Shown: positions 50,057 through 50,207 of the stretch, one piece after another | How the letters are laid out: each line of letters opens with the position of its first letter | How positions within the stretch are numbered: the stretch's first letter is position 1 | Source of the DNA: a virus | Strand: one strand, 5' to 3' | Virus record (IMG/VR): IMGVR_UViG_3300049489_000171 | Coordinates: 1-55,368 of that record | DNA length: 55,368 nucleotides | Program-made: the position numbers and the translations under genes | Notes under the pieces: generated by a model | What the model saw: only the letters and a program-made list of their open reading frames with translations | What the model was told of the DNA's origin: nothing | Databases searched by the model: none

Positions 50057-50207
50057 TCACCATCCCCGCACCATCCGCGCACCATCTCCCCAAACAGTCC
50101 TAACACGATGATTTAATTAAATTTTTCACTAAACGCACCAACCGCGCACCAAGCCCGCACCAACTCCCATTTACCTGTGGATAACCTGTTAGCAACGGCG
50201 CACCATC
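50057..50207 (+). other. Probable replication origin with 11-bp iterons
   Basis: Iteron triplet 1 starts at 50057, 50068 and 50079 ((T/G)CACCATC core); triplet 2 at 50135, 50146 and 50157 (GCACCAA core). Spacing is exactly 11 bp. The stretch between them is AT-rich (GATGATTTAATTAAATTTTT, from 50107). A perfect DnaA box (TTATCCACA on the minus strand, 50176-50184) and another GCACCATC (50200) follow. These are the standard parts of an iteron-type origin. No Rep initiator was recognised. Confidence 0.7.

Follow-up and report, generated by a model that had tools for sequence, protein, structure and literature searches.

The divergent, gene-free hub of an uncultivated podovirus genome is probably the main (early) replication origin of the phage and, judged from its sequence, would be of the split-iteron type of the satellites and P4. 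Comparison with related phages suggests that this origin layout is kept while the repeated word in it is replaced, and this is the new point of the analysis. The genome is IMG/VR record IMGVR_UViG_3300049489_000171, and its whole length of 55,368 bp is called the window below. The original prediction of an iteron-type origin was right in what it observed and somewhat understated, and the origin reading is likely, as it is supported by the anatomy of the hub, by the statistics of the repeats and by the conservation of the layout in divergent relatives.

Anatomy of the hub

The prediction had described two iteron triplets at exact 11-bp spacing flanking an AT-rich stretch, a perfect DnaA box after them, and a location in the divergent hub without genes. 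Direct reading and counting confirmed the spacing, with CACCATC at 50058, 50069 and 50080 and GCACCAA at 50135, 50146 and 50157. The DnaA box was found as described, and the hub indeed lies between a leftward terminase/head/tail arm and a rightward early/replication arm. The wording of the iteron core needed a correction: the units are present, but the first copy reads TCACCATC and not GCACCATC. In addition, we found two more iteron copies (50200 and 50225), a 26-bp inverted repeat and three ACCGTGACACGGT palindromes. The features of the hub are the following.

49540 to 50366: divergent gene-free hub (putative origin region), between the leftward and rightward arms
49649 to 49897: three 13-bp palindromes ACCGTGACACGGT (cores at 49649, 49751 and 49839) and a half copy (49887)
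49987 to 50012: perfect inverted repeat of 26 bp with 12-bp arms, CACCATCACCCT-CT-AGGGTGATGGTG, built from the iteron word
50057 to 50089, plus strand: iteron set 1, three CACCATC units at 11-bp spacing
50108 to 50137: 30 bp of AT-rich sequence (80% AT) lying between the two sets, candidate site of unwinding
50135 to 50167, plus strand: iteron set 2, three GCACCAA units at 11-bp spacing
50176 to 50184, minus strand: perfect DnaA box TTATCCACA, the only exact match in the window
50200 to 50207, plus strand: single further iteron GCACCATC
50224 to 50230, minus strand: inverted iteron, GCACCAT (TGGTGC at 50225)
50264 to 50293: further AT-rich stretch (87% AT), ahead of the first early gene

The word TGGTGC/GCACCA occurs in seven copies within a span of 163 bp, compared to 0.11 predicted from the rest of the genome, and none of 200 dinucleotide shuffles equalled the best 7-mer count of the hub. 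For the single DnaA box in 55,368 bp, dinucleotide shuffling of the complete sequence gives an expectation of 0.15, and 12 of 100 such shuffles contained one box or more. When the window was scanned for repeats in 55 segments of one kilobase, the hub segment ranked second, and the top-ranked segment was an 18-bp-period coding repeat of a beta-solenoid protein. The detrended cumulative GC skew, proposed earlier as a check, has its minimum near the hub (50411) and the AT skew at 49811, but all genes diverge from the hub, and thus the skew cannot tell replication from transcription. The palindromes are in the left half of the hub, where they are possible regulator or partition sites, and one of them sits inside a hairpin with 15-bp arms (49829 to 49859).

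Genome map and gene arms

No terminal repeat was found in the window, the first 15 bases of which recur nowhere. The last 36 bases run in frame into the first ORF, and because of this continuity from end to start the map is probably circular or circularly permuted. From the hub the leftward arm carries the terminase, head-tail adaptor, capsid and tail genes, and the rightward arm small early genes followed by the prim-pol/helicase, an exonuclease, a Gp2.5-like SSB, a family A polymerase and a second helicase. The large terminase subunit (TerL) shares 44% identity with its counterpart in Burkholderia phage BcepC6B, and the named relatives of the capsid and the head-tail adaptor are only distant. 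The genes that bear on the origin are these.

46279 to 47748, minus strand: large terminase subunit
47745 to 48479, minus strand: gene in the small-terminase position (assigned by its position before TerL), rival reader of the repeats
48392 to 49033, minus strand: hub-adjacent protein, conserved, nearest to the hub on the leftward arm
4555 to 6681, plus strand: prim-pol/RepA-like (AAA_25) helicase of 708 aa, by PHROG and Pfam matches, candidate iteron reader
6644 to 7420, plus strand: gene directly 3' of the helicase, candidate second initiator or loader
9959 to 10537, plus strand: Gp2.5-like single-strand binding protein
13648 to 16509, plus strand: family A DNA polymerase

An ORF at 48966 to 49538 is probably not a gene, and no relatives of it were found.

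The hub in related phages

Relatives were collected as phage records sharing both arms, with the terminase, helicase and hub-adjacent protein as queries. The genes of the collected loci were compared against 41 window proteins, and the hub was compared in six relatives (G001, G002, G004, G005, G007 and G008). The position of the hub, between the hub-adjacent gene and the early arm, is identical in all six, and their prim-pol/helicases are 35-74% identical to that of the window. The hub itself aligns poorly even between the window and G001, the terminases of which are 91% identical, and nonetheless the word TGGTGC recurs. The word is TGGTGC in the window, G001 and G004, TGTTGC in G002, TGACGC in G008 and GGACGC in G005.

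Since the words of the relatives were picked from their own enrichment, the counts against expectation (7 versus 0.11 in the window, 13 versus 0.36 in G001, 10 versus 0.06 in G004, 12 versus 0.12 in G002, 9 versus 0.07 in G008 and 8 versus 0.11 in G005) are descriptive, and the fair test is that of 7-mers in shuffled sequence. In G001, G002, G004, G005 and G008, as in the window, none of the 200 shuffles came up to the best 7-mer count of the real hub. The array of G007 is weak, its best count being matched in a fraction of 0.135 of the shuffles; a hairpin is present in this hub, and the hub kilobase tops the 59 segments for repeats. Relatives with intact replication genes and without iterons had been named as counterevidence to an origin. 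No such relative was found: five of the six have strong arrays and G007 a weak one. In the repeat ranking the hub segment is first or second in the window, G002, G004, G005, G007 and G008. The hub segments of G001 rank first and third, the first place being owed to a different array, GCAATGC, which outnumbers TGGTGC there and was kept apart from the iteron counts. This large array consists of GGCATTGC(GACC) units (L005:5500-6200), with 21 GCAATGC in a hub of 1,115 bp.

The two-sided arrangement of iterons is clear in the window, G001, G002 and G005, and the arrangement is one-sided in G004 and G008. In G001 and G004 alike, TGGTGC is present in both orientations, and the hubs carry a perfect DnaA box as well as hairpins that contain the word; the hub of G008 also has word-bearing hairpins. 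The DnaA box is present in the hubs of three of the seven genomes, which are exactly the three with TGGTGC, and none was found in the hubs of G002, G008 and G005. The suggestion that host DnaA is used is plausible for the window, G001 and G004 and does not hold for the group in general. In G001, G002, G004 and G008 the detrended GC minimum is found no more than about 1.3 kb from the hub, and in G005 and G007 it lies elsewhere.

In L256, a seventh relative, TAGCGGC occurs eight times within about 235 bp, out of nine copies in the whole 12.6-kb locus; three of the eight follow each other at 10-bp spacing, and the hub also has a hairpin. The strongest 7-mer of this hub is a different repeat, CCCGGCA, which was likewise kept apart from the iteron counts. 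The hub of a further relative, G006, was not located because the record has no match to the hub-adjacent protein. This protein was found in 12 loci; L254 has coding sequence where the hub would be, and in L251, L148/L252, L149 and L143/L250 (with L144) the sequence either begins too close to the gene or contains no array.

A search at the DNA level with the hub gave no match among 50,697 phage records, and the terminase as a single query retrieved L005 (G001) and a fragment, L006, only. A pattern scan for three GCACCA at 11-bp spacing returned 99 stretches. In the comparison with the window proteins seven of these (L045, L046, L053, L056, L071, L078 and L122) matched a single gene each, none of the 99 matched more than one, and they were not taken as relatives. 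Among the early-gene relatives, L007 to L012 (6 of 20 loci examined) had no CACCA pair at 10-12 bp spacing. The distant terminase relatives L183, L204 and L205 were left out of the counts: their tandem repeats, which are upstream of the terminase in all three, are AT-rich, and L204 and L205 lack the helicase. The repeats of the latter two (L204:7400-7620 and L205:7650-7730; ATAACAT and TATACAGT) may represent a further variant of such a hub.

Candidate readers of the iterons

The original prediction had recognised no Rep initiator, and this stands in so far as Rep_3 was absent from all seven records; however, a prim-pol/RepA-like helicase, akin to the proteins by which satellites and P4 read their iterons, is present. 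The fold matches of its core include RSF1010 RepA. Its N-terminus is presumably of the primase-polymerase type, a name we base on PHROG matches. The C-terminal part of about 90 aa is modelled as winged-helix-like, with the order helix-helix-helix-strand-strand at residues 627-697, at low confidence (pLDDT about 50), and it has a winged-helix match to MarR_2 with an E value of 0.0093, below the cut-off. Conservation within the protein is lowest in this tail, with 19-32% identity to the window (69% in G001, which stands apart), and the helicase domains of G002, G004, G005 and G006 are 45-60% identical to that of the window. Such divergence of the tail is as expected of a specificity domain. The idea that the tail would follow the iteron word found no support, as the tail of G004, which has TGGTGC, is closer to that of G008 (41%) than to that of the window (32%). 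On the basis of the predicted fold, the prim-pol/RepA-like helicase with its winged-helix-like C-terminus is the likeliest candidate as reader of the word. The step from the layout to an origin is well supported; from the origin to this named initiator, we infer the link.

A small related protein follows the helicase in the window, G001, G004, G005, G007 and G008 and is missing in G002; for the shorter ones the similarity was judged by eye. For the hub-adjacent protein of 213 aa the predicted structure was of moderate confidence, and it matched no PDB entry at an E value below 0.08. The sigma-like protein (gene 305-994) was set aside as a reader because nothing in G001 matched it, although G001 shares the word of the window.

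Comparison with known replication systems

Satellite origins are described as always having two iteron sets flanking an AT-rich region and as sitting just downstream of the rep gene (PMC6092414). The window resembles the origins of the PICI/SaPI Pri-Rep type in its two sets of short iterons on the two sides of an AT-rich region. According to the account in PMC7581432, the SaPI Rep helicases read the iterons via a C-terminal domain, apparently as two hexamers, and the helicase of the window has at this end a tail that is predicted to be winged-helix-like. The systems differ in the position of the origin, as the hub is about 10 kb upstream of the helicase gene across the record ends and not just 3' of it. 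Also, the window is a full-size phage with terminase, head/capsid and tail genes and its own polymerase, the helicase is RepA-like (AAA_25), and a DnaA box is present in three genomes.

In the P4 alpha protein, primase, helicase and a winged helix binding the origin repeats are joined in one protein (PMC4234260). The window protein has a primase and a helicase by PHROG and Pfam matches, and in a model of low confidence its tail has a winged-helix-like topology. In contrast, the P4 primase is of the bacterial Toprim type, as presented in PMC4234260, and the window has a prim-pol with a RepA-like helicase. Plasmid RSF1010 is similar in having a RepA-type hexameric helicase, iterons and a primase, as described in the same source (PMC4234260). 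Its functions are divided between three proteins (RepA helicase, RepB' primase and RepC iteron binder), whereas the window has a fusion, and a RepC homologue was not identified for the window phage. A replication protein of the prim-pol/helicase/winged-helix kind and an origin hairpin are described for pRN1 and phage BIP-1, but no iteron origin was found in BIP-1 by that study (PMC4234260), and the hubs described here have iterons and short hairpins. A further difference is that the helicase of the window is not of SF3. We take BIP-1 to belong to the BPP-1/BcepC6B surroundings, and the terminase of the window is related to that of BcepC6B. The theta plasmids with iterons and Rep_3 share with the window the direct repeats, the AT-rich stretch and the DnaA box. 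They differ by the Rep_3 protein, absent in 7/7 records here, and by the spacing, which is about 22 bp between the iterons of such plasmids and about 11 bp in the window. We found no published iteron origin for this phage group and no paper joining "iterons" and "podovirus" in the literature covered, which included few subscription papers.

Alternative explanations

The repeats could be the sites of a phage transcription regulator acting on two divergent promoters, with replication starting elsewhere or by recombination. Both arms are transcribed from the hub, the array is near the first early gene, and the palindromes and the hairpin built from iterons are operator-like. However, an AT-rich stretch beside a DnaA box, flanked by two sets with a phase of one helical turn, characterises an origin and not an operator. 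HTH_3 had no match in the window, G001, G002 or G005, and no match to the sigma-like gene was found in G001 despite the shared word. We regard the operator array as unlikely. A packaging site, where the small terminase would recognise the repeats as cosB or pac, is in our opinion improbable. The terminases of some phages do bind short repeats, and the hub is about 1.5 kb upstream of the gene in the small-terminase position, but a packaging site needs neither a DnaA box nor an AT-rich stretch. Moreover, the small terminases of the window and G004, both with TGGTGC, are 23% identical, whereas those of G004 and G008, with different words, are 39% identical. The similarity of the small terminase thus does not follow the word, which makes a terminase site unlikely, although this reasoning gives no preference to the helicase tail either.

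The original prediction had also considered a plasmid-like state, fitting with the absence of an integrase; on this reading the hub would maintain the phage as a low-copy plasmid. The absence of the integrase was confirmed for the window, and the layout of iterons and DnaA box is plasmid-like, but the reading is not supported. Neither a ParA-type ATPase (AAA_31, the only partition type covered) nor Rep_3 was found in any of the seven records, the window has no HTH_3 repressor, and no capsid match occurred among 72,556 plasmid records. The only relative with a tyrosine integrase, G007, keeps the hub in the same position, which speaks against a plasmid state. The same genome has the weakest array, as the proposed link would predict, and with this single case the link is not fully refuted; we nevertheless consider plasmid-like maintenance highly improbable.

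A proposed model of initiation at the hub

If the hub is the origin, a phage initiator, most likely the helicase by its winged-helix-like C-terminus, would bind one iteron per helical turn, and binding on both sides of the AT-rich stretch would assemble two helicase rings. The stretch would then melt, in the window probably aided by host DnaA, the prim-pol domain would prime, and the family A polymerase, SSB and second helicase of the phage would move forks in both directions along the divergent arms. A dimer of the initiator may bind to the hairpin, which may tie replication to early transcription. As a more tentative proposal, this podovirus lineage may have a satellite-type split-iteron origin in which the word has been switched repeatedly (TGGTGC, TGTTGC, TGACGC, GGACGC and TAGCGGC), with the position, hairpin, AT-rich stretch and replisome kept and the DnaA box gained or lost with the word. 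Such switching would create incompatibility groups, perhaps under the pressure of a hijacking of the initiator by satellites or co-infecting relatives.

If full-size phages that have a replisome of their own use a split-iteron origin, this would link the replication of satellites and phages. Homologous origins with the same layout and different words would provide a test bed for changes in the recognition code of an initiator, and the same series could show if origin words act as incompatibility groups among co-infecting phages and satellites. The prediction is concrete, as it concerns one hub, one helicase and a few genes.

Additional observations

The gene at 1466 to 2269 of the window has twelve matches to the YdcK beta-solenoid repeat, with a DNA period of 18 bp. 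Early genes between 50339 and 54425 have repeated leaders, in which AATCACACAACGGGAGTA precedes the ATG. An 86-nt element is present in three copies at 52031-52821, another of 32 nt is found at 53287 and 54394, and these leaders are likely early translation or promoter signals. Within the early arm a stretch of 254 nt is duplicated with 78% identity (50835 to 51724), giving two copies of a gene for a small cysteine-rich protein.

At residue 241 the prim-pol/helicase gene of G001 is split by an insert of about 570 bp (L132:9426-9998; contig about 38941-39513), for which there was no Rfam intron match, even at E 1. The insert holds an ORF with a C..C / LALDHCH / RGWLC..CN pattern, and by this motif we presume it to be a homing nuclease of the endonuclease VII type. 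The helicase domains of G007 and G008 (L136 and L137) are 58% identical to each other and about 29% to that of the window, and their prim-pol domains are 43-50% identical to that of the window, which looks like an internal domain swap in the replication protein of these two phages.
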